A stretch of DNA of 64,000 nt from contig JAQGEQ010000380.1 of assembly GCA_034620365.1 (NCBI GenBank), positions 1,054,001-1,118,000 of the forward strand, given 5' to 3'. Positions 48,301 through 64,000 of this stretch are shown here, one piece after another (the first letter of the stretch is position 1; every line of letters begins with the position of its first letter). The position numbers and the translations under genes are program-made. This DNA is from Pegea sp. RAD2-039. Taxonomy: Eukaryota > Chordata > Thaliacea > Salpida > Salpidae. The notes under the pieces were generated by a model. The model was given only the letters and a program-made list of their open reading frames with translations, had not been told where the DNA came from and searched no databases.

Positions 48301-51300
48301 CTCGTCCACACATATAAGTAATTTTGTTCGAATCTTATTTCAGACTCTACAAGTATCCGATGTTCGGTAAATTAGTTTTGAATGATTGTTCCTCACCACA
48401 GATTTCCAACTTCACTCAATATCAAGTTGATCAAAATCAGGTTTTTTACTGTAACCATGATAAGCACTCCAGCAGAAAATTCGATGGTTTTAATTTCACT
48501 GTAACAATCAACGACTTGTCTGAAAACAATTCGGTACTACCTAATTACACCTTTATTTGACAACTCAATTTTCTGAATAATTTCAGGTTGAAATCTCCCT
48601 TCGTCAGTTTATACAACCAGCCACAATACGAAACCACCGAGATATTTTCACTCATCAAAATTCTTCTGTTTTCATTCATAAATCCGACCTACGCGTCACG
48701 CATGAGCAAGCACGTCCACGTGACATAGTTTTTCGTGTAATTTCACACCCATTATTCGGTCACCTGATATTAGGTAGCAAATTACTCGACAAAGAATTCT
48801 TCGGTTTGAAATTATTTCTTTAAAATGAAGACGACAGACTTTTAAAAAATTTATTTTCAGAATTCTCTCAATTTGATATTAATCAGGATTTAATAAAATA
48901 AAATATGAGACAAGACATAGATCTTATTAAAGATGATCTTACACCTTCCGATAACGTCTTGTTTTCAGTTGATGTTTTAGGAATAGGAGCTCATTTAGAT
49001 AACTTGAATATGACAATCCATATAATCCCAAAGTTGATCCCATTTAGGTCTCTTCTTATCACTGATCTTCATCAATTGACTTAATTTTTCAAATTTTAGA
49101 GTTTCTAACTATTCCGTCGATGAAGGCAAATCTCGTGTTTTAATTCCATCTTTACTTAATGTTGCTACTTCTTCAAATGCAAGATCTGATCTTCATCATG
49201 ATCTTACAGTTATTGTCGTTAAAAAACCAAAATTTGGTCAGTTAGAATCTGGAGGTAAAATCTTGAATCAATTCCCACTTCGGTTGTCTTTGAACGAGTT
49301 TGTTTACTACTCACATGACAACAGTGAAAGTTCAGAGGTTTGAAGAAACATCATTTATAATCTTTTAATCAGTTATTTTAATTAGGATTCATACCAATTA
49401 CAAGTAGTTGACCTCACTAATGAAAGAAAGAGTCGAGTTTTAACTCAACATGTTTTTATCAATCCAATCGATGACTTGCCTCCGACTATTATCAACAACA
49501 CAGGATTACTTGTACGTGCTTCCAGAAGTTCATCTTTCATTTACCTTCTTCACTTCATTTAACAATTTAATTAAAGGTCTGGACTAATTCCGTAACACTC
49601 CTTAATAACAATCATTTGTCTGCTTCTGATGAGGATTCATCTTCTGATCAATTAGTCTTTATCTTCTCTCCACCCAGCAACGGATACTTTGCTCACAAAA
49701 CCAACCAATTAAAACCCATCAACAACTTTACCCAAACAGACATCAACAATCATCAAATTGTTTTTATACACCAAGGTATCTGTCAACATCAAGTTGAAAA
49801 TATCTTCTTGATGTTAATGTTGTAAGGTGGCAGTAAGGGCGGTTTCTCCTTCCAAGTCACTGATCATCAAAACTTCGGCAAGAAATCGATATTTGTCATC
49901 AATTGCAGACCTTTGGTATTAAAAGTTGAAAGAAAGCAGCCAGTAAAGGTATTTGCATTTTCAAGTGAACTTCATGATTAATTAAATTATGTTCAGATGT
50001 ACCCCGGAAGTACAGCGATGATTAAAAGATTAAATTTAAATGCTTCGACAAACGATGAGGAAGAGAGGAAAGTCATTTATGTAATTATAAAAAAACCGAC
50101 TTCGGGAAAGCTGTTAATCATCAACTCCAGTAAGTCTCCGTCAATCTCAAGTTTTAAGTAAATCTGGTAAGATATCTTTTTAATTATTTGTAGATTCATC
50201 ACACGGATCAGATGATGATGATGAAATTGAGGAATTTACGAATAAACAGATTGAAGAAGAGCAAGTTTTCTACTTTCATGTAAGCTCCATGTCTTAATCA
50301 GTCATGTAGAGATATCAGAATATCCTCAAATGGAAGCCAAGTCCTCTTTTCTTTCGTGAAATAACCAAACTCCAGATATCAACTATTTGTTAGTTCCCTG
50401 TTACCCAGGTAGGGACAGTACTTGGTAATGGTTTTCCCGAGGTGTTGGTCCACATCACCTTTTCTCTTTCCCCACTTGTCCACTGATAGTTTACCTACAG
50501 AGGGTTGAATGTCACAAGCTCCGTACATCTACGGATGCAATTATGAAACTATTCTTTAGCTAAACAGTCTTGAAGCTAAAGTATTTTAGAAATCCAAATA
50601 TTTATCTCTACCAAAGCTTCTCGCCAGCCAGGTACCTCTTTCGTGTCCATTATAAGGCTTCACTTTCTATATTTCTTAATCTCACACTTTCTGTATCTTT
50701 GTCCAACAGACTACTTTCAATTGATATAAATGAGTAGAAATTATTTGAAGCAAATTTCAGAACTCACCCGTGAATGAATGGAGCTTAGTGGATGATTTTT
50801 GTGTAACAGCAACTTCAAGCCCAGCTCAAAATGTTTCTAATATTTGTGTCAACATCAACATCACATTTGATGCTTTTGAAGAAACTAACCGAAGAAGCTG
50901 TTTGAATACAAACAAAGGTAACTTGTTACATGGACGATTTAGTTCCATTTCATCTTTATTTTATTGGATTAACTTCAGCTGAAAATCTTTGAATTTAGAA
51001 ATACAAGTGGATGAAGGAGCAAATTTTACTTTTACATCTGCCTTTTTAAATGCCAGCAACTTACTCTACAAGTTAAAGAAGAAATCAAAATTACTTTCAT
51101 ATATAAAGTTTGTTTTTAAACAGTTTTATAGAATTTCTGAACAAGTTTTGTTAGTTTGTTTTTCAAACCTTATAATTTATTTAGATATCAAATTGTCAAA
51201 CAACCTTCATATGGAAAATTGTTCTTAAATGAAAGTTATTATGAGAAGAGGTTGTTTTTTAATGACTCATTTACTCAAGATGATATCAATAGAGGTAAAC

Positions 51301-54300
51301 TTATATACCAACATGATGATAGTGAAAATGGAAAGGTTTGTAAAAGCAAATAATTATTTTCATTTGTAAAATGTACGTTTATAATAATTATTAGCTTTGG
51401 TTTTTTACTAACAATTTTGTTAATTAAATTATATCTTAAAAGCTTACATTAGAAGTCATTCAATTTTTTATTCATATCTTCAGTTTTTAGTAAATATTTC
51501 TATTTTAACAAGGATGAGTTTTCTGTGGATATTTATCTTCTAGATGAAGAACAGAAGTTTATAACCAATGATTCAGTTCTTATCTCAGTTAATCTATTAA
51601 ATGATAACAAACCAGTATTAATCAAAAAAGCAGCTTTACTTCAAGTAACACAAAATTGTTTCAAATTTGATCAAATGATATTTATCATGTCTTCATTCAT
51701 ACTTTTTATTAGTTTCTTTCTACTAATTTTCTTAGATATTTGAATACTTCTTATCTAACTCATTAGAAAAGTTAAAAATCTTTAAATTGTGTTTCACTAA
51801 AACCTATCTTTGAATACTAACTGATTCTAGATTTAATTCTAAATTCAAAAATAAATCTGTTTTTAAGATTATAACTACTCAATAAATAAACTGAATGGTT
51901 TTTATCTAAAAAACTCAAATAAATTTCATTTTTTGATCTCACAATCAAACTGCCTAATATTTTGAAGGTTAATGATGGGTTTCCTTCACTAATAACCACA
52001 GAAGTTCTTTGTGCATTTGATGCTGATGCAAATGATCAAATTATATTTGAAATGATTCAACCTTCAAGACTTGGAAATTTATATTTGAACTCAAATGTAA
52101 CTTTGCATTTTTCACAATCCGATATTGAAATGAATAAAGTTTCATTTAAACAAAACAACTATTCCTTATCATCAGGTATTTATTTAATTATTATATTATT
52201 AAAATTAATTAAATTTTATCTTAATTTATTACAAACAAACTTTGTAATGAAGAAATATATTTCAGGTAAAGTTGAACACGATGTATTTTATTTTGGTTTT
52301 TCTGATTTGTATCACCCTTCAACATATACATCTCTTGCACTTGAGGTTGGTTCTGGAGGTTTTTAATCAAAAATAGTTGCTACTTCAGAATAATGAAACG
52401 TTTTAGTATTATTTGATGAGTGTATACAAATTTTAATCCAGATGATTTATATAAGATATAATCTAAATGCTTATTTATAAAATTGTTCATTTCTATATGA
52501 GCAAGATAACTTTTTTATAGATATGATCTTATAGTGGTTACGCCACAATGTTTCGTTTGTGTGTTTCAGAACAAATAGCAAATACTTCTGATATTGTAAA
52601 AAGTCTAGCCTCCTCTTTATTTTCATTATTTGATTTGAAAATATTTATTTTCAAAAGATTCATCCCATCAAAGTTAGCTTTACATCAAAGAACATATCAA
52701 TGAAGCAAGGAACATTTATTGTCCCAATTACAAAAGAAATTCTTCAATATGACACCAATGGAGACATGAAATATTTAACTTTCTACTTACAAGAACCTTT
52801 CAAAGCTGGAAACTTTCTGATTAATAATAGCGAAGTATTTCTCAAATGTTAGACATGAAATCTGTTACTGATTTACCTATACTTAGGTTCGTTATTTTAA
52901 TCCTTATCATCTTATGTCTGGTGACTTGTATTATGTGATGAGTAATCGTACCAGTCTTGGAGATTCTGCAAATATCACTTTGTTGTATAATGACACAAGA
53001 TTGAACTACCAAGTATCTTTATCTAAACTTCTTTCTGTCAATGTAGATCTCAGCATACAAATTCAGCGTAAGTGTAAAGATTTTGTTGATGGTTAGTTTT
53101 ATTTGATTCAAAAAATGTTGGAGACACTAACAGAGAACAATTTCAATTTATTTCTAATATAGTTGGACTTTTCTTCTTTTCTTTTTTCTTATGTTTGAAA
53201 TTAATCAAATTCTTCAATTGATTAGAAAACTTTACTTTAAACATCCGTGATTCCATCATCCTTTCAACCTCTATGATCAACTGCTCGGAGTTGCTTCAAC
53301 TTACAAACACAATTGCTTCATTTCTAGTTATCCAAAAACCAAAGTTTGCAAAATTTATCAAAGTTCAAAGTCCGTTCACATACAAAAAGTTGAATTTTTT
53401 TGTTCAAAATTCAATTACTTTTCAGATGAGACATTAAAGGAATCTCATCTTTTTCGTTTCACTGATCAAGATATTGCTCAAAATCGAATCAAGTTAAAAG
53501 CTTTTGATAATATTTCAGCTCCAATTCAAGATTCCTTTTTACTCAAGTAAAAAAAAATCAATTTTCTACTAAGTTAGAAATCTGAATAAAAAATATTTCA
53601 GATCTTATTCTGAACGAGAATTATTTCAAACAAAACTGATTAATATTCACTTTCACATCAGTCTCATATCCAGCATTTCAACTACAAGTTTGTTTTAATC
53701 TACAATTTTAACATAAAAATATTTCAAATCATAACTTGAGATATACTTGTAGCAATTTCTTCAAACACTTCATCAAAACCGAATAATGTGACTGAAAATT
53801 ACAAGATAACTAAAATTGAAGTTTCAAATTCAACTACAATGTCGAATATCGAACCCCAAAAATCGAATCTTGAAGTTAGTAATTTTATTTAAATTTCAAA
53901 AGTTGTATAAACTAAAATACAACATTAATCAACATCACATAACACTTTTATTATTTATAAATTTCCAGGTATCGTCCAATACAGTTCCATTGATATGGAT
54001 CGTAATTGGAACAATTCTACTGATTTTACTTTTAGTTATTTCTGTGTTACATATACGTTACAACTCTCAACTTTGTAAACCAGAACAAGCACCATCTGAG
54101 CAGAACAATGCAGTTAATTGTGAAGATGATTTTGAGAAAATTAGTTGGTATCACAAAAGTACAAACAACTCAACTATTGTGAAAGTAACAGCAACTCGCC
54201 AAGAGCAAGGAGTTGAAAGGTGTCTTACTGCTCCTGTTGTAGTTCATTCTCTCAATAGACCTGAAATTGAAAGTGATGAGATGCTAATTGACGAGAATTG

Positions 54301-54445
54301 TGATCTCAACTCTCAATATGATGATTTTGATGAAAGAGGGTCTTTAAACCAACTGGATCAGTTTCTCAGTGACGGGTATAGTGATATATTTCAAGACAAT
54401 CTAGTAGATTCAAATCCAGGATCTGTCAGACATTATTTCATTTGA
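43269..54445 (+). CDS. CSPG4: CSPG4/NG2 (kon-tiki) transmembrane proteoglycan (40 exons)
   Basis: The model has 2410 codons before the stop (human CSPG4 is about 2320). Order: signal peptide (residues 1-15, MLYAKVIIIIFIFQA, then SFYGDS at the mature N-terminus as in CSPG4 'ASFFGEN'); two laminin-G domains (about 16-170 and 230-410); a long series of CSPG repeats (about 425-2230), each with a PxxGxL strand and an F[ST]QxDI motif; a transmembrane helix (about 2258-2281, WIVIGTILLILLLVISVL); and a cytoplasmic tail of about 129 residues ending HYFI. Family role (known): a cell-surface adhesion and guidance receptor, kon-tiki in fly muscle and glia, binding PDZ proteins through its C-terminus. Oddities: an in-frame TAA at 48899-48901 in the best model (codon 1346), and an ambiguous exon 12/13 joint. 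With that codon included, all exons keep phase over 7233 nt. Confidence 0.88.
45392..48533 (+). other. CSPG4: CSPG4-like gene, exons 9-19: first CSPG repeats
   Basis: Exons: 45392-45721, 45771-46203, 46287-46432, 46513-46919, 46994-47339, 47390-47481, 47528-47664, 47712-47902, 47968-48082, 48138-48288, 48344-48533. Repeat starts such as LHVIEGAEAV and LTVEEGKEETIL, and ends such as YKHSGDDSVSDQAIFEI, mark the modules. The 46919/46994 joint is uncertain: 46888 joined to 46981 also keeps frame but loses the expected LPQLF strand. Exon 15 may contain a removable 45-nt segment (47571-47615). Exon 16 is unusually G+C-rich for this locus. Confidence 0.82.
48587..50280 (+). other. CSPG4: CSPG4-like gene, exons 20-27: middle CSPG repeats, with an in-frame stop
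   Basis: Exons: 48587-48773, 48861-49047, 49100-49337, 49386-49511, 49577-49775, 49827-49948, 49997-50129, 50195-50280. Exon 21 begins EFSQFDINQDLIK, the standard repeat motif, and then has TAA (48899-48901) where the family normally has Tyr. Reading resumes NMRQDIDLIKDDL in the same frame. A phase-correct detour (donor after 48804, acceptor before 48910) removes the stop but also the FSQFDI motif. Exons 22-25 match the human repeat ending 'NDQPPILTTNTGL' (here DDLPPTIINNTGL). Confidence 0.75.
50330..50700. repeat. Base-balanced insert in a CSPG4 intron, possible interspersed repeat
   Basis: The 480-bp intron 50281-50760 is much longer than its neighbours (45-90 bp). Most of it is base-balanced sequence with words such as cccaggtaggga, gttttcccgaggtgttgg and gtacatctacggatgc that look unlike local intron DNA. 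It has no long open frame. I infer an inserted repeat fragment, but I saw no second copy in this window and no clear target-site duplication. Confidence 0.35.
50761..54445 (+). other. CSPG4: CSPG4-like gene, exons 28-40: last repeats, transmembrane helix and tail
   Basis: Exons: 50761-50917, 50999-51107, 51185-51335, 51513-51644, 51968-52175, 52266-52345, 52658-52834, 52887-53067, 53226-53369, 53426-53546, 53602-53687, 53753-53874, 53969-54445. Repeat motifs include SYGKLFLNES, FTQDDINRGKLIYQHDD and FRFTDQDIAQNRI. Exon 39 is a Ser/Thr/Asn-rich stalk. The last exon encodes the membrane helix and an acidic tail with SDGYSDIFQDN, ending in HYFI before TGA 54443-54445. Several acceptors here are AAG (exons 31, 32 and 34). 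Confidence 0.85.
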
Positions 54446-56209
54446 CATCAACTAAAAGACCGTATTCAGTGGTGAATATTTGCGATTTTATTTTAAATCA
54501 TTCTTCTTTAAATATTTCAGTTCTATTCATCTTGAGTGGAAGATTTTTGATGATCAAATATTTAAAAATCATTCAGAAACTTTTTCATCTAAAAAGTAAT
54601 AAGACAATCTCTTATACATCATGTATTTGAGAGCTAAATGATCTTTTGATCTACAACTGCTTGTAATTTATAAAGCTTTATTTGCTTTAATGAAGTTCTC
54701 ACAAAATTCTGTCAAGAACTTGCTTACAACTCTAACTACTACTACTCTATCTAGATACAGAGACTAGTCGCTGACTAAATCCTTTTTGTATTCAAATACT
54801 GAGCTCTTACAAATTTGTGAGTTAACAGATTCTGCTTAATACTCTTCTCAGATTTTTGTAAAATACCAAAATGTGGCAAACGAAATGACTGATGCACTCT
54901 ACATTTGTTTCATTGGTACATCTACTAATGTGTGTTTTCCTGCCAAATATGTAAACTACCTCTTTAACTCTATCATTCTAATAACACTTTTTCAAAATTT
55001 ATTTAAGGTAATCACTAATACAACATTTTTATTTGAATCTATATTGTACTGTTTTACTTCTTTTCTTGAAAGTTCAAAGTTTGTGGTACAAAAATTCAAA
55101 GGTATTATTTATTGATTAGAATTATACGAGAAACATCGTTACGTCTGTAAATAAAATAGCCGATAATATTTCAAAACAGATTGAACTGTTTAAAGATATT
55201 TTCATTAGAAACATGGCTTACAACTTTGTGTTTAAAATATAGAATTTAAAACTATTTTATATTTTTTATACTGATAAAAGTTGATATACTCGGTTTGTAA
55301 CAAAGAATCTATTAAGTATACAATCTACTGAAACTACTTTTAAGTAACTAGATGCATAACATTTAAATACACGTTAAATGTTTATGATGTAACTTTAAAA
55401 CAAGAGTTATCGGTCATTTATTCAAATAAAATGAATTTTTAAAACTAGATTAAAAGGATAGTGATGATACGATAATGTTGATGCTTATTTCTGCGAATTT
55501 ATCTACTTTCTAATGAATAATGAAAACAATAAAAAAGCTGTTGCTTTTATTTAAATTATTGGATAATCGGTAACCTCAAAAAGTTCACAACTTATGTTTT
55601 AATTAGTTAATGTGTTTTGATTAAAAGCTTTGTCAAGTTTTTTAATTGATTTAAAATTTTAAAAGTTTCTTTTGCTTTAAATGTGATTTGGTTTCCAGGA
55701 AAGCTTATATGATCCTCTAAAACCATGAAACTTCATTTGAAGAAATATTGAATGTTTTAACTACTTTTTATACTAATCAATAACATTTCAAACAGTCAAT
55801 TGAAATAAACGGTGACTTTCGGATAACTGTTGATTCTGAATAAGCTGTAGTTTTTAAATGTTGGTTTTATGCAGAATTAGTTAAAAGACACAAAATCTGG
55901 CAGTCTGCTTTCTAAAAATAAAGATATTTGTGATCTGAAAAAATTCTGTAGTGACTAAAGGTTCAAAAAAATTACAACTTAAAACCAAATTAAAGTGTGA
56001 AGCAAGTTAAAAAGATCAAATAAAGAATCTTTGATCAGCCAAATGATCGAGTCTTGAAACATAAAATATCTAACAAAACAACTAAATCTGTTTTTTTACA
56101 TTTGAGATACTATTGTTTTTAACCAGAAAATTTCTTAAGATGTTCAGTTTAAAGCTAAGAGCAGTTTTTGAATTTAACATTTTTTTTCCTAAGAACTGCC
56201 TATTATCAA
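54446..56209. other. 3' UTR of the CSPG4-like gene and intergenic DNA
   Basis: No gene is seen. AATAAA at 55150-55155 is a plausible poly(A) signal for the CSPG4-like transcript, about 0.7 kb after its stop. The open frames at 54442-54630 and 54873-55115 lie in this probable UTR and are low-complexity. The rest is A+T-rich up to the retrotransposon. Confidence 0.45.
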
Positions 56210-56393
56210 TTTAGGCCACGGTAGCTCTACTTTCACCTTGGTGGATTGACTTGTTATCTCAATCTGTGTCTTCTCAGAGTAGTTTTGCTAAATGTTCAAT
56301 AATTATTAATCGGTGCTCTTGTATCAGCTAGTTGGGATTCAAGAAAGCTAAATAGCAACCAGCTGATTTCAAATACAAAGTTCGAGGTCCACC

Positions 56394-59300
56394 ATGGGCT
56401 TTAAAGATTGTGAAGGTCTTTTCAAAAAACGGAAATGCAAAATAACCACTGGACCCACATCACCCTTATTCAACCTCTCTTCGCACAAAATTATTAATAC
56501 TATGCTTCCAGCCCAAGATAACAGTACACAGAAGACTACCACCAAATCTTACAAGTGTCAAAAAGACAATTTTTCTTTTATATATATAAAATATATAGGT
56601 ATGTTTTTCAACGCACGGTCAATTGTCAACAAAATTTTCGAATTGAAAGCTCTTTTGCTTTCTCAAGATTTTACATTTGTTTTCATTACCGAAACTTGGT
56701 TGAAACCCTTTTATCCTGACTCCTTTCTGGATGACAGTGATATTTTTCGTGCTTTGCGCTGTGATAGACTGTTTGGTAGAGGCGGCGGTGTTTGTGTAAT
56801 CTATAAAATATCACTGGCACCCATGATTTCAAGAATTAAGATAAATACCATTGATTGCCCAGGATTTGAGATTATTGCTTTCAATTTTCATTACTCAAAA
56901 TCTAAGTTTTCCCGCTTTATATGTACCTACCTACCACCGTCTAAAGTTAACGATGAGGTTACTATTAAGGCCTTATTGAAGGTTCTGAAAAGCCTTGTTT
57001 GTCCTGAGATTTATATTCTCGGGGATTTTAATTTTAGTAGAATTGATTGGAATAACCCAAATTTAGCATTCAATGGAAAAATGTTTAATTTGAATGGAGA
57101 CAAAACTAATTTAGCCAATCTGAGTCATGTCTTTGTAAACTTCCTTGATGCCAATAATCTATCTCAGATGGTTACTTTTCCAACCCAAGTTAGTGGTAAT
57201 ACTTTGGATCTTCTCATCACATCAAAACCTGATAACGTTATCTACGTTGATCAAAATGAACCTTTTGCTCTGACATGCGATCACAACATGATTGAATTCA
57301 AGCTCCAACAAACTTTTTCTACGAACGTTAAAACTCCAAGCATACGGAACTTTTATCGTGGAAATTATAACAGTATAAACAAGTTTTTATCAGGTGTTGA
57401 CTGGATTTCTGTTTTCAACTCTACCGAAGACATCAATGATATCTACTCGAGGTTTACTAACATTGTTAATGAGTCAATTAAAAAGTTCATACCTTTATAT
57501 AGAGTCAACAAAAAACAACACTTGCCAAGATATTTAAGGAATTTACAGCATTTGAAAAACCTCTTATACAAACAAACTAAAGCAGATCCTTCCATCAAAC
57601 CTCTATACAAAGATCTTTGTCTAGTCTACAATAAATCAGTTTATAGCCTCTATTTAGGAAAAGAAAGTGCAATCTTATCTTCACCTAGCAAGAAAACGTT
57701 TTTTGGCTTCATTAATCACAAGCTTAAGGCGAGATCTCATCTACCTCCCTTGCTTGATAACGCCAATCAGCTGGTGATGGAACCAAAGAATAAAGCTGAA
57801 TTGCTAAACAAACAATTTGAAAAGGTTTCTATAACCGATGATGGCAATACTCCTACTATTTCCTACTCCAATATCCTTTCAAATATCTCTGAGATGGTAG
57901 ATCTAGACATAACAGTTGATATAGTATCTAAGGCTATTTCTTCTCTAAAATCAACAGTTTCCAACACCCCAGATCAAATCCCAGCTTTGTTTTTAAGGAA
58001 AAGTACTTCTTCTTTAGCGCTACCCTTATCGCTACTCTTTAACATGACTCTTAAGCGGGGAAGACTTCCACAAATTTGGAAGAATGCTATTATTACTCCA
58101 ATTTATAAGAAGGGTCCCAGAAACACTGCACTTAACTACAGACCAGTTTCGCTGACGTCGGTTATCTGCAGAACTCAAGAACACATCATTCACAACCATA
58201 TAACTAGCCATTTGACGGAGCATCATCTAATATCTGATGCCCAGCATGGCTTTGTTAAGCAAAGATCTTCTTTGACTCAACATCTCACTTTTTTCAATGA
58301 GCTTACAGCTCATTACGAAAGTAATACTCCATGTGACATCATATACCTTGATTTTGCCAAAGCGTTTGATTCTGTTCCACACAACAAGCTCATTACTGTA
58401 TTGAAAAACATAAAAATCAGCAACTCTATCTTAAAATGGATTGAAGATTTCTTATCAGGTAGAACCCAACGAACCCGTGTAGAAAGATCTTTATCTACTC
58501 CTAGTAAAGTCACCAGCGGCGTTCCTCAAGGTTCCGTCCTGGGTCCACTTCTCTTTTTGATTTTCATTGAAGACCTCATCAGAAGACTAATAACAGTAGA
58601 CAATGTCAGTGTGTTTGTGTATGCAGACGACATCAAGCTATTATCTGGTTCTCACTCAAAACTCCAAACTGCACTTAATATTGTAGAAAACTGGTCTGCG
58701 AATTGGCAACTTAAAATCCAGCCAACAAAGTCTGAAGTTATAACATTCTCCCGTAAGCCAGCTGCCAACTTCAGCAACCAATACTACATCAATGGATCTA
58801 TTCTTGAACGAGTATCCTCAGTCATAGACCTCGGCATTACTCTGACATCTGACTTCAAATGGCACAGTTATGTTTCCAGAATCTTTGGAAAATCTATCAG
58901 GCTTGTCCACCTCATCATAAAGACTTTTAATTCTAAAAATCCATGGTTTTACGTGAACCTTTTCAAACTGTACATACGCCCTATTCTTGAATACAATGTC
59001 AGTGCATGGATGCCATATCAAGTTGGTGATATCAGAAAAATCGAACATGTTCAGGCAAAATTTACGAGATTGGTTTGCAGGAAACTTAATATCAAATACG
59101 AGAGTTATAAGCATCGTCTCAGCTTCTTCAATCTAGATACTTTGGAAATCCGAAGAATTAAATACGACCTTATTCTGATTTTTAAAATTATTCATAACCT
59201 AATTGATCTTCAGTTTGATGACGTTTTCTCCATTAGTCCCTCCCTCAAGTTATATCAACTTAGAAGACATAAATTACATCTTAATAAGCCCACTCCACCA

Positions 59301-59453
59301 GCTACGTTAACCAGATTAAGTTTTTTCTCATACCGCACAATCAGTACATGGAACAATCTGCCATCAGAGATTGTCATGTCAAAATCACTTATGCTGTTCA
59401 AGAAAAAGCTGAATTGTTATAACATCGCCAACATTGCCGTTTCTAAACTGTGA
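56394..59453 (+). CDS. Retrotransposon endonuclease/reverse transcriptase polyprotein
   Basis: This is one uninterrupted 1019-codon ORF, starting in a strong CCACC-ATGG context. An apurinic/apyrimidinic-type endonuclease domain (about residues 70-305) shows NARSIVNK, ITETW, ILGDFN and CDHNMIEF. Reverse transcriptase (about 565-830) shows LNYRPVSLTS, LDFAKAFDSV, SGVPQGSVLGPLLF and the catalytic YADD at 743-746. The C-terminal part (HRLSFFNLDTLEIRR) is typical of CR1/jockey-group elements. The protein nicks target DNA and copies the element RNA by target-primed reverse transcription. No separate ORF1 (RNA-binding gag-like protein) is present upstream; the N-terminal 65 residues are polar and unrecognised. 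All catalytic motifs are intact, so the protein could be functional. Clade assignment is by motif memory only. Confidence 0.95.
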   Translation: MGFKDCEGLFKKRKCKITTGPTSPLFNLSSHKIINTMLPAQDNSTQKTTTKSYKCQKDNFSFIYIKYIGMFFNARSIVNKIFELKALLLSQDFTFVFITETWLKPFYPDSFLDDSDIFRALRCDRLFGRGGGVCVIYKISLAPMISRIKINTIDCPGFEIIAFNFHYSKSKFSRFICTYLPPSKVNDEVTIKALLKVLKSLVCPEIYILGDFNFSRIDWNNPNLAFNGKMFNLNGDKTNLANLSHVFVNFLDANNLSQMVTFPTQVSGNTLDLLITSKPDNVIYVDQNEPFALTCDHNMIEFKLQQTFSTNVKTPSIRNFYRGNYNSINKFLSGVDWISVFNSTEDINDIYSRFTNIVNESIKKFIPLYRVNKKQHLPRYLRNLQHLKNLLYKQTKADPSIKPLYKDLCLVYNKSVYSLYLGKESAILSSPSKKTFFGFINHKLKARSHLPPLLDNANQLVMEPKNKAELLNKQFEKVSITDDGNTPTISYSNILSNISEMVDLDITVDIVSKAISSLKSTVSNTPDQIPALFLRKSTSSLALPLSLLFNMTLKRGRLPQIWKNAIITPIYKKGPRNTALNYRPVSLTSVICRTQEHIIHNHITSHLTEHHLISDAQHGFVKQRSSLTQHLTFFNELTAHYESNTPCDIIYLDFAKAFDSVPHNKLITVLKNIKISNSILKWIEDFLSGRTQRTRVERSLSTPSKVTSGVPQGSVLGPLLFLIFIEDLIRRLITVDNVSVFVYADDIKLLSGSHSKLQTALNIVENWSANWQLKIQPTKSEVITFSRKPAANFSNQYYINGSILERVSSVIDLGITLTSDFKWHSYVSRIFGKSIRLVHLIIKTFNSKNPWFYVNLFKLYIRPILEYNVSAWMPYQVGDIRKIEHVQAKFTRLVCRKLNIKYESYKHRLSFFNLDTLEIRRIKYDLILIFKIIHNLIDLQFDDVFSISPSLKLYQLRRHKLHLNKPTPPATLTRLSFFSYRTISTWNNLPSEIVMSKSLMLFKKKLNCYNIANIAVSKL

Positions 59454-59597
59454 ATTTTTCTATTTTACAATACTATGATTCTGTGCAATTCTTCATTGTC
59501 ATATACTTTTTCGTTTACAGGTCAAATAGATCTAATTTGTGAGAATGTGTGTTAGTGAGAGATGCTCTCTTTAGGCACCCTCCTTCACATTTATTGT

Positions 59598-59628
59598 AAT
59601 AAATAAATAAATAAATAAATAAATAAAT
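59598..59628 (+). repeat. TAAA microsatellite tail of the retrotransposon
   Basis: About seven TAAA units follow the sequence cacatttattgtaat. Simple-repeat tails of this kind mark the 3' end of many CR1/jockey-group LINEs, where reverse transcription starts. Confidence 0.85.
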
Positions 59629-60564
59629 TGGAAGTTTAAATTATCATAAAAATTAGAATTAATAAAGTTTCTGAGTATAAAATGATCAGTCTGTATGAGA
59701 CCCTTTAAAGATAATTGACAAATGCACGTCTATAAAATTTCATTTACTTGCATTACTACAACAGTATAGATTTTTTTTCATATTCAGAAAGCATAACTTA
59801 GTAATTGAAATTAATTTGATATTACTATTTGTTGGGAGATTTTATAACTAGAACATTAAATTTTTCAATTTTTTTTAGTTAAAATTTCTATAAACAATTT
59901 GATTTTACTGCGCATCACCCAATTAGAAAAAACCTAGGAAACCTTATTTTGCACAAATGTTTTATTTCGCGTTGTGTAAGTGTAAGTTTTCTTTCCTTGA
60001 GCTGTAATCATAAATATAATCTCTTCTTTCTAACCTTATTTGTAATGAGTTAAGAGCTAGATCTATACATAATGGATTGACATGATAGGTGAAACTTATT
60101 GAATTTGAAAGTAATGCAACACTTCTGTTTCGATTAACTTGAGGTACCTAAAAAAATTATCGACATTTTTAATGAACATTGAAATGCATGTAATCACTTA
60201 AACGTATATTTCAAAACAAAGACCACTGCAATAATTTTCGTATACTACTAAAAATATCTTAATTAATAAACTATTTTAATAAACTTAATTATTTAATTTT
60301 TTTATTAATTTAAAGAAAATAAATAAACGTAAAATTGAAATTATTGCGTAGCAAACACAGGTGTTATTCTCAGCCAATCATATTGTTTGCTTTTAAATGT
60401 TTTTGTTTTTGTTCTTCCGAACTAACAGTTTTAAGTCCGAGCCTAGCAGAGACGGACATTGAAATCTCTGTTTGATTACAAAATAAGTTTAATTTACCTC
60501 ATAAGATGCCAAATTTGTAATTAAGGAGTAAAATCAGTAAAATTATTAAAGAATTACCCGCATA
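59629..60564. other. Intergenic DNA and promoter region of the acidic repeat gene
   Basis: The first 700 bp are A+T-rich with nothing recognisable. From about 60400 the sequence is more balanced (tccgagcctagcagagacgg) and probably forms the promoter or 5' UTR of the downstream gene. No TATA box is evident. Confidence 0.4.
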
Positions 60565-63500
60565 ATGTTTCGCATTATTTTTTACCTCGTCCTAATAACA
60601 GGTAGGTAATATTTTTATCTGACATTTTATAACGTATTTTCAAAATTTTATGTTTTAGCCATTTATTTGTATAATACTAAACCTTATATAGTTGCTTTCT
60701 GTAAAAACTTTTCGAAACCGAAAAAAATGTTAATTAATTGTAATGTTTTACCAAGACCTCTCAATTAACTTATTTCTAGTTGAAAACATGAACTTAATCA
60801 TGTGCTTTTAAGTTTACTAATAAATAAAAACTATTTTAAACTAATATCCTTAAGTTATGTTCATCAAGGTTAATGAAATTCCATTAAAAGTTTTCTTAAG
60901 TCACAATGATGATGAATAAAGTAGTTTTGTACTTAAATTACAAAGTACGCATAAACTAATTCATTAAATCTGAATAAAACTTTTAGCATTTTTTAAAGTT
61001 CAACCATTACCTTGATTTTAGTATTATTTCTAACTGCTCTCATTAGAATTTCGTTATTTTTTATAACTTTATGAGCAGTTTTTGATTAAAATTTTTTGTT
61101 TCAATAAAAATAATGTCTAAATTCGGTTTTAATCAAATTATTCACGTTAGTAGATACACAAAAAAGACGTTTTCAGATTTAATGCTGCATGGAAAATATT
61201 GTGAACTAACTAACGAAATATAATTAACGACAAACATGATTTTTTTATATAATTTTATAAAAATTGTATAAAAAAGTGAAAAACGTTACAACACTGTTAA
61301 TAAATCAATTTCGAAATACTTGAGTAAAAACTTTAATTTAAATAATTGATTATTGATAAGTAAGCAATAGTTCAGACAAATTTAACATTTACCATCTATA
61401 TTTTTCACAATTTATGTTATTTATTTTAATACTTTTTCATTCTCAACCTGTTTATTCGAAAATAATATTTATTTAGTTATTAGATAAAGCTTCTTAACTA
61501 CTAAGCTTGTATTATTTTAGGATTAACTACAACTTGCTTTGCAAAAGAATCGATTGGCGGTGAGATGATCCTTACCTTATTTTCTAAAACAAATTTTTTT
61601 ATTTAAAAATTTATAATATTTTATGTAAGAAAATTTGTCTAAATATTTAAACAAAAAGGTGTATGAAATAGCTTTTCAGTTTTACAGCCTGTGTGTAAAT
61701 GACCTCACACTAACGTATATAATTTAATAACTTTTAACTCATATATTAAGATAAAACAGAGCCTCGTACTTTTTCAATTGAAAATGAAGAAAGAGATTTA
61801 CCTGAAATAATTGAAACTTTGCAGTCAGATTCAGGTGAAAATTCTAAGATTAAATCAATGCAATATATGTTACTTTTGTTAAAGAGCTATTCTGTGTTTT
61901 ATAAAAAAATCAGTATTATAGATTATTAGAAAAATGAGCTAGATTTTAATCATTTTATTTCAATTAAAACTATAACTAACACAACAGAAACTGCTGATCT
62001 AGTAGACGATAATTTTGGTTTAAAAGAACGCTCATCAGATATTTCTATAGAACCAAAAAGCCAAACTGAAAGTAAGTTATTTCTAATTAGAAAATGAATT
62101 TGCCGAAATTCTGTATTTTTCAGTAATATCGCTTAAAGCATGATAATCTTATCATATAAAAAGCCATTAAAACAACTTTTTCTAACCAAATATAACCATC
62201 TTTAAAAAAAATCACTATTATTTCAACAAACACTATTTAATATTTTGTTTCAAAATTATCTGTATCATTAGATCCTCATGATACAGATGAAGATGAGAAA
62301 GATTATGTTGATAAAGATGGAAGACCTCTTGATAAAGAAGATGAACATAAAGGTTTGTATTTATCTAACATACATTTAAGTATTTATACATTTGTTTCAA
62401 TTTTTACTTTAATATTAAACAGATACTCAAATAATTGTTGATGATGAGAAGGATTATGATGATAAAGATGGAAGACCTCTTGATAAAGAAGATGAACATA
62501 AAGGTTTGTATTTATCTAACATACATTTAAGTATTTATACATTTGTTTCAATTTTTACTTTAATATTAAATAGATACTCAAATAATTGTTGATGATGAAA
62601 AAGATTATGATGATAAAGATGGAAGACCTCTTGATAAAGAAGATGAACATAAAGGTTTGTATTTATCTAACATACATTTAAGTATTTAGACGTTTGTTTC
62701 AATTTTTACTTTAATATTAAATAGATACTCAAATAATTGTCGATGATGAAAAAGATTATGATGATAAAGATGGAAGACCTCTTGATAAAGAAGATGAACA
62801 TAAAGGTTTGTATTTATCTAACATACATTTAAGTATTTATACATTTGTTTCAATTTTTTACTTTTATATTGAATAGATACTCAAATAATTGTTGATGATG
62901 AGAAAGATTATGATGATAAAGATGGAAGACCTCTTGATAAAGAAGATGAACATAAAGGTTTGTATTTATCTAACATACATTTAAGTATTTAGACATTTGT
63001 TTCAATTTTTACTTTTATATTGAATAGATACTCAAATAATTGTTGATGATGAGAAAGATTATGATGATAAAGATGGAAGACCTCTTGATAAAGAAGATGA
63101 ACATAAAGGTTTGTGTTTATCTAACATACATTTAAGTATTTAGACATTTGTTTCAATTTTTACTTTAATATTGAATAGATACTCAAATAATTGTTGATGA
63201 TGAGAAAGATTATGATGATAAAGATGGAAGACCTCTTGATAAAGAAGATGAACATAAAGGTTTGTATTTATCTAACATACATTTAAGTATTTATACATTT
63301 GTTTCAATTTTTACTTTAATATTAAATAGATACTCAAATAATTGTTGATGATGAAAAAGATTATGATGATAAAGATGGAAGACCTCTTGATAAAGAAGAT
63401 GAACATAAAGGTTTGTATTTATCTAACATACATTTAAGTATTTAGACATTTGTTTCAATTTTTACTTTAATATTAAACAGATACTCAAATAATTGTTGAT

Positions 63501-64000
63501 GATGAAAAAGATTATGATGATATAGATGGAAGACCTCTTGATAAAGAAGATGAACATAAAGGTTTGTGTTTATCTAACATACATTTAAGTATTTAGACAT
63601 TTGTTTCAATTTTTACTTTAATATTAAACAGATACTCAAATAATTGTTGATGATGAAAAAGATTATGATGATAAAGATGGAAGACCTCTTGATAAAGAAG
63701 ATGAACATAAAGGTTTGTATTTATCTAACATACATTTAAGTATTTATACATTTGTTTCAATTTTTTACTTTTATATTGAATAGATACTCAAATAATTGTT
63801 GATGATGAGAAAGATTATGATGATAAAGATGGAAGACCTCTTGATAAAGAAGATGAACATAAAGGTTTGTATTTATCTAACATACATTTAAGTATTTAGA
63901 CATTTGTTTCAATTTTTACTTTAATATTAAATAGATACTCAAATAATTGTCGATGATGAAAAAGATTATGATGATAAAGATGGAAGACCTCTTGATAAAG
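60565..64000 (+). CDS. Secreted acidic protein with tandemly duplicated exons (3' end outside the window)
   Basis: Exon 1 (60565-60601) and exon 2 (61521-61559) encode a signal peptide, MFRIIFYLVLITGLTTTCFA, with likely cleavage before KES. Exons 3 (61760-61834) and 4 (61988-62071) encode polar, acidic sequence (NEERDLPEIIETLQ; LVDDNFGLKERSSD). Exon 5 (62272-62352) is a diverged founder of the repeat, reading DEDEKDYVDKDGRPLDKEDE. Exons 6-16 are copies of one 27-residue unit that begins DTQIIVDDEKDYDD, continues KDGRPLDKEDEHK, and returns to the same phase; the last is cut by the window edge. Every internal exon is phase 1-1. The product would be secreted, highly charged and probably disordered. 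No family is recognised. A DKDG word recalls calcium loops, but the spacing does not fit an EF-hand. The architecture resembles that of variable secreted proteins built from symmetric exons, such as flatworm micro-exon genes (comparison only). Confidence 0.78.
60602..61520 (+). other. Intron 1 of the acidic repeat gene (919 bp)
   Basis: This A+T-rich intron splits the signal peptide between Thr12 and Gly13. No repeat unit, ORF or regulatory word stands out. It is much longer than the later introns of the same gene. Confidence 0.6.
62272..64000 (+). repeat. Tandem array of 151-bp exon+intron units
   Basis: Founder exon: 62272-62352. Near-identical copies: 62423-62503, 62574-62654, 62725-62805, 62877-62957, 63028-63108, 63179-63259, 63330-63410, 63481-63561, 63632-63712, 63784-63864 and 63935 to the edge. 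The period is 151 bp (152 where an intron gains one T): an 81-bp exon plus a 70-bp intron with donor G|GTTTGT and acceptor CAG or TAG. Introns are as similar as exons, so the units were copied recently as genomic blocks. The copy at 63481-63561 has ATA for AAA (Lys to Ile). The true copy number is unknown because the window ends inside the array. Confidence 0.95.

Follow-up and report, generated by a model that had tools for sequence, protein, structure and literature searches.

A tandem array of symmetric exon–intron units in a putative giant stereocilin-like gene of the salp Pegea sp. RAD2-039

The window, i.e. the whole 64,000-nucleotide stretch of DNA analyzed here, corresponds to C6:1054001-1118000, so that window coordinates plus 1,054,000 give positions on contig C6, and position n of L009 is window position n+60000. 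Its right-hand part contains the 5′ end of a predicted gene on the forward strand. According to both the reading of the sequence and the gene model, exon 1 (60565..60601) carries the start codon and a signal-peptide core (MFRIIFYLVLIT plus G) and ends in phase 1. Three phase 1-1 exons follow on the same strand: exon 2 (61521..61559; LTTTCFAKESIG), in which the signal peptide appears by eye to end, exon 3 (61760..61834), for which an alternative acceptor would move the start to 61751 and leave the phase unchanged, and exon 4 (61988..62071). The N-terminus, MFRIIFYLVLITGLTTTCFA, is by eye a plausible signal peptide. A search of Rfam returned nothing in the window. Elsewhere in the window, the stretch 45750-46226 matches Pfam Cadherin_3 (29 bits, cut-off 25.5) and reads as CSPG4-like.

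Downstream of exon 4 lies an array of exon–intron units, for which Tandem Repeats Finder reports a period of 151, 11.3 copies, 97% matches and a score of 3198 at window positions 62288-64000. The founder unit, u00 (62272..62422), comprises an exon at 62272-62352 and an intron at 62353-62422; its exon head differs from those of the other units, and its intron is like theirs. It is followed on the same strand by units u01 (62423..62573, exon 62423-62503), u02 (62574..62724, exon 62574-62654), u03 (62725..62876, exon 62725-62805, with a 71-bp intron), u04 (62877..63027, exon 62877-62957), u05 (63028..63178, exon 63028-63108), u06 (63179..63329, exon 63179-63259), u07 (63330..63480, exon 63330-63410), u08 (63481..63631, exon 63481-63561), u09 (63632..63783, exon 63632-63712, again with a 71-bp intron) and u10 (63784..63934, exon 63784-63864). 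Unit u11 (63935..64000) is cut by the window end. The window thus holds the founder and 11 further unit starts, 10 of them complete, each unit being 151 or 152 bp long and composed of an 81-bp phase 1-1 exon and a 70- or 71-bp GT-AG intron. The repeat period and the splice sites bear out the earlier note, which had described a founder followed by eleven nearly identical, symmetric exon–intron units.

The eleven units are nevertheless only the start of the array, which continues on the same strand beyond the window with u11-u19, up to position 65317. Over its full extent (L009 2288-5393), Tandem Repeats Finder counts 20.4 copies at 95% matches. The array was divided into 20 units, from the founder u00 to u19, which were then aligned. 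Splice sites are intact in 20 of 20 exons, with AG before the exon and GTTTGT after it. Exon lengths are 81 bp in 15 units, 84 bp in three, 93 bp in one and 82 bp in one, and intron lengths are 70 bp in 17, 71 bp in two and 72 bp in one. A splice/codon dynamic programme that was blind to the claim picked 19 of the 20 exons, all in phase 1-1; the one it left out, u15, lacks 2 bases of its exon. Unit u17 carries a 9-bp internal duplication. At one place in the introns, TAG is found in some units and TAT in others, and intron retention would therefore introduce a stop codon in only part of the units.

Three kinds of exon head are distinguished: PHDTDED in the founder, TQIIVDD in the 14 type A units (u01-u13 and u19), and HDKDYDY in the type B units (u14-u18, including u15). 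Every head is followed by the core EKDYDDKDGRPLDKEDEHK, which is common to all types, except that in the founder a V replaces the first D after DY. The peptide is identical in 13 of the 14 type A units, a K to I change in u08 being the sole amino-acid difference among their exons.

The gene extends far beyond the array on the same strand. Array 2, the first of two intronless 54-bp array exons, occupies 65318-66045, and is separated by unique phase 1-1 exons (66250-67960) from the second intronless array exon (68122-68583), after which a stereocilin-like body runs to about 91.2 kb. The gene was modeled with a home-made exon model based on splice weights and codon usage, which yields 78 exons up to position 91177, with 20,211 coding bases and, roughly, 6,700 residues; exons placed past 91177 are uncertain, and several of the body's small or atypical exons may be wrong. 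Upstream of position 69500, 34 of 34 internal exons of the model, a set to which u15 does not belong, are in phase 1-1, and 13 of these lie outside the arrays. Downstream of that position, only 2 of 43 are. The array exons are frame-neutral with the exception of u15 and their donors are identical, so that the skipping of a regular unit keeps the frame. A locus whose main use is variable exon inclusion, giving many product lengths per cell, could be built in this manner. However, the unique neighboring 5′ exons are likewise all symmetric (13 of 13), the phase being no peculiarity of the array, and with one peptide in 13 of the 14 type A units skipping would alter length only. We consider this use of the array quite unlikely.

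The two intronless exons repeat the core without introns: 13 copies in 65318-66045, at spacings of 54 bp (n=11) and 53 bp (n=1), and 8 copies in 68122-68583, where 7 of 7 spacings are 54 bp. In regularity they match the intron-bearing array, with 18 of 19 spacings equal to 54. Divergence among the 54-mers of these runs is 3.7-3.8%, compared with 1.5% in type A exons. Four further intronless coding tandem arrays are present in the gene, with units of 57 bp (10.4 copies, L010 5444-6034), 96 bp (3.1 copies, L010 7347-7644), 225 bp (12.9 copies, L019 247-3160) and 60 bp (22.5 copies, L019 3902-5255); two of them, the 225-bp and 60-bp arrays, contain frameshifts as assembled.

A comparison of the units reveals that, contrary to the earlier note, exons and introns are not equally conserved. 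Within type A (14 units), divergence is 1.5% for exons and 3.9% for introns, whereas types A and B are 9.8% apart in their exons and only 4.3% apart in their introns. The description of the founder as diverged holds for its exon, which differs from type A by 10.2% with a head of its own, but not for its intron, which is 3.2% away from type A introns that are themselves 3.9% apart. Introns are therefore equally alike across types whose exon heads differ, which indicates a single intron pool over all types. The proposal that a whole frame-neutral exon–intron unit was duplicated at the DNA level is supported.

The variants are also distributed among units as a mosaic. In type A (14 units), 14 of 36 pairs of sites fail the four-gamete test, and likeness is highest between units that are six apart (permutation p 0.039); both features are as would be expected from exchange between units and block duplication. 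Type A exons have four variable sites, three silent and one not, out of 13.3 silent and 67.7 non-silent sites. In these small numbers, drawn from type A units only (u15 and the B units excluded) that share a history and are not independent, non-silent variation (1 of about 68) is lower than intron variation (8 of 70; Fisher p 0.033) and than silent variation (p 0.012). The mostly silent exon changes hint that selection may keep the unit peptide.

The unit was searched against the genome set (105.7 Mb, 387 contigs), and 44 matches were obtained, 42 on C6 at the array gene, one on C10, which represents the same locus, and a single one on C23. The last is a relic on the reverse strand at C23:331968-332131 (L033 4869-5032), 73% alike over 179 columns (E 5e-23) and thus about 27% diverged, in which an exon end is followed by a complete intron and the beginning of a second unit exon. 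Other parts of the protein gave no convincing match near the relic (best E 1.5). Two further tandem repeats lie in its neighborhood, with units of 11 bp (61.5 copies, L033 8588-9260) and 30 bp (7.5 copies, L033 9707-9931). Two protein searches for a paralogue of the array gene matched only C6 at the gene itself (14 and 13 matches), one of the matches being an internal repeat at 28% identity.

These observations bear on the age of the array. The earlier note had regarded the amplification as recent, and the near-identity of the living units, together with the restriction of the 151-bp array to a single locus, would suit an array made lately from one unit, its uniformity reflecting youth. Three head types sharing one pool of introns, the four-gamete conflicts and a relic that points to a tandem pair of long ago all argue against such a burst, which appears unlikely to us. 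Since a tandem pair decayed by some 27% stands against living units that differ by a few percent, concerted evolution provides the better explanation. We therefore favor an older array whose uniformity is maintained by unequal exchange, the tandem state being older than the present uniformity, and the earlier proposal of a recent amplification holds only in part.

The spliced 5′ part is not open in the sequence as assembled. When u15 is included, stops are encountered; when it is skipped, a net shift of -1 arises near 65551, in the first intronless array. The shifts of u15 and of array 2 do not compensate each other, the shifted stretch being full of stops. The gene model needed five skipped bases at four places, and since all of these places lie in tandem repeats, the frameshifts are likely errors in the repeat consensus. 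Were they real, the gene could be a dead or dying allele whose array is free to expand as the gene no longer works. No reading of the whole array as assembled is free of stops, and shifts are also found in the downstream 225-bp and 60-bp arrays; yet the model has no frameshift at all outside tandem repeats, the array splice sites are all intact, and changes in type A exons are mostly silent. Loss of function is, in our judgment, very improbable.

The same features raise the question of whether the number and order of the units are a product of assembly and the true allele contains many fewer units or many more. C6 is the only contig that crosses the array. C10 (738,644 bp), which carries the same 5′ end, matches window 56350-62338 and stops inside the founder exon (C10:738580-738644, L032 5081-5145), the frameshifts cluster in repeats, and C6 is apparently mis-joined at a LINE 4 kb upstream. 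On the other hand, 13 columns vary among the 14 type A units, which are thus not copies of one read; the units change in order from type A to type B to intronless, with unique sequence at both ends and no N in 106 kb; and the C23 relic repeats the exon–intron–exon design. An artefact of this kind is very unlikely.

The presumed mis-join itself involves a LINE whose reverse-transcriptase-like frame, of 1028 codons, spans window 56367-59453. C6 and C10 differ at 48 columns, all within 56353-57998, and at none from 57999 to 62338, whereas C34:1-10172, which matches window 49442-59628, differs from C6 at 27 columns up to 57354 and at 39 from 58085 to 59575. This pattern implies that the window's LINE combines two copies, changing at about 57,999-58,084 from that of C34 on the left to that of C10 on the right. 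C6 is probably mis-joined near 58.0 kb, so that the left neighbor of the gene would be the C10 sequence, with C34 as the proper context of window 1-58,000; genuine ectopic recombination at the switch is a possible alternative to a mis-join. The array lies outside the affected stretch. TTAGGG telomere-type repeats occur at contig ends, at least in C108, C125, C139, C142 and C342, and speak against most arthropods (TTAGG) and nematodes (TTAGGC). Searches of the genome with PF00115 (COX1) and, at up to 1 mismatch, with a rotifer spliced-leader sequence had no match, and PF01484 (nematode cuticle collagen) matched neither the genome nor any control.

The second intronless array exon shows probable traces of movement. 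Upstream of 68122-68583 are 49 bp of the 3′ part of the array intron, and downstream are 47 bp of its 5′ part, neither likeness being equaled in score by any of 1000 shuffles. The two pieces overlap within the intron, which implies that the source unit had array introns on both sides. In our reading, this exon would have been moved within the gene to a site 2 kb downstream, the breakpoints falling within the introns on either side. The introns that border the whole array, upstream of the founder and downstream of array 2, do not resemble the array intron significantly (304 and 908 of 1000 shuffles, respectively), and were accordingly discarded as sites of the duplication breakpoints.

As to the product, a 1290-residue downstream piece matches the Pfam family Stereocilin (PF21058) with 37.6 bits (cut-off 26.6, E 1.8e-9), in a single hit that spans profile positions 300-395 of 397. 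A 583-residue C-terminal sub-piece reaches the cut-off neither for Stereocilin (21.3, cut-off 26.6) nor for Mesothelin (16.6, cut-off 25.8), and has no match in the PDB. An exon-by-exon search with PF21058 yielded no hit in the genome, and none in its controls, which were all prokaryote. Stereocilin paralogues were sought with this profile and in the protein searches, whose matches all lie on C6 at the gene itself. The array gene likely encodes a giant secreted extracellular protein of the stereocilin/otoancorin/mesothelin-like type. A 163-residue piece that holds the units matches nothing in Pfam at E<=1 or among PDB sequences at E<=10. Among the papers listed in the open-licence literature searched, none describes the 27-residue unit or an array of this kind in a stereocilin-like protein, in keeping with the earlier note, which knew of no described family having this unit.

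The repeats are composed of D, K, E and Y. The array region (758 residues) has a net charge of -191, about -25 per 100 residues, and at least three acidic residues are found within five positions of each tyrosine, both in the array region (62 of 62) and in the second intronless exon (23 of 23). The array is thus the polyanionic, tyrosine-rich N-terminal part of a probable stereocilin-like protein. The plausible signal peptide and the strongly acidic unit agree with the earlier note, but its description of the product as a secreted acidic protein is not supported in that form: the array makes up no more than the N-terminal portion of a giant protein, one stretch of which is stereocilin-like. 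The most economical reading is a disordered polyanionic segment, perhaps tyrosine-sulfated or cation-binding, on a large matrix-type protein. We considered an EF-hand or a thrombospondin type 3 calcium loop for the DYDDKDGRP core; its spacing, D-x-D-x-x-D-G, does not fit these motifs.

Arrays of whole exon–intron units are known from a few genes, best from those of spider silks. In the Argiope MaSp2 and flagelliform silk genes, exon–intron pairs are iterated within one gene with nearly identical introns, smaller repeats are nested, and repeat versions occur with and without introns (PMC9779670, PMC3522626). The gene described here is comparable in that a secreted repetitive protein is encoded by iterated exon–intron pairs with near-identical introns (20 units, 3.9% in type A). 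Between types, its introns are as uniform as its exons or more so (4.3% against 9.8%, A-B), as in MaSp2/Flag-like genes, with the reverse holding within type A. Unlike spidroins, it has an acidic D/K/Y-rich unit with an 81-bp exon and a 70-bp intron, confined to the N-terminal part of a large non-repetitive gene. Its D, K, E, Y composition and an N-terminal piece without a Pfam match at E<=1 set it apart from the spidroins. For silk genes, it has been proposed that repeated introns help unequal crossing-over to homogenize the coding units (PMC9779670). The idea that introns aid the homogenization of small repeats is not clearly supported here, as the intronless runs are equally regular and a need of introns for regularity finds no support.

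In human LPA, the KIV-2 unit measures 5.6 kb, contains two exons, encodes a folded kringle and is present in 1-40 units per allele (PMC11201333). Both genes encode secreted proteins and contain arrays of frame-neutral units including introns, in which few shared variants and subtypes separate the units. By contrast, the present unit has 151 bp, one exon and no known fold, and is represented by one assembled array only. Schistosome micro-exon genes encode secreted proteins through many small symmetric exons, which are divergent and separated by long introns. The aphid bicycle genes are a family of separate genes for secreted proteins with many small symmetric exons (PMC9168663). The 5′ part of the array gene resembles both in its small symmetric exons (34 of 34 in phase 1-1), but differs from them as one single-copy locus with near-identical units; a multi-gene family like that of the bicycle genes was not apparent, no paralogue having been found in the two protein searches. 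Members of the stereocilin/otoancorin/mesothelin family are predicted to be superhelical ARM-type, GPI-anchored proteins that bind the extracellular matrix (PMC2628672). The downstream body corresponds to this family by its Pfam match above the cut-off, and the protein departs from it in its length of about 6,700 residues, its acidic repeat head and its several other tandem arrays. Genes of this design have thus been described for spider silk and human lipoprotein(a), and here the design is found in a different protein.

Taken together, we regard it as reasonably probable that a symmetric exon with its intron was tandemly duplicated to 20 units and homogenized within a giant stereocilin-like gene. 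All predicted 5′ internal exons are symmetric, and one of them, together with its intron, would have been duplicated in tandem to this number. Exons and introns would be kept uniform, and copy number would shift by whole frame-neutral steps, through events of unequal crossing-over and conversion among units whose breakpoints could fall at any point of the 151-bp period. The length of the acidic segment could then be altered in steps of 27-28 residues with no loss of frame. A flexible polyanionic segment may serve to space or charge the N-terminus of a matrix or attachment protein, and the acidic setting of every tyrosine would suit tyrosine sulfation or cation binding. It is tentatively suggested, as a rather doubtful extension, that introns act as handles by which whole exons are exchanged and inserted, in an ongoing exon shuffling within the gene, and that individuals would consequently carry a stereocilin-like matrix protein whose polyanionic, possibly sulfotyrosine-rich stalk differs in length between them.

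With intron-bearing and intronless runs of one peptide, the gene contains an internal control that has no parallel in genes with a single form, and this is complemented by an exon insertion caught with its breakpoints inside introns and by the decayed relic. The turnover of the two forms between alleles would show whether introns matter for homogenization and exon shuffling. The exon–intron array is also placed in an apparent giant relative of the inner-ear matrix proteins.
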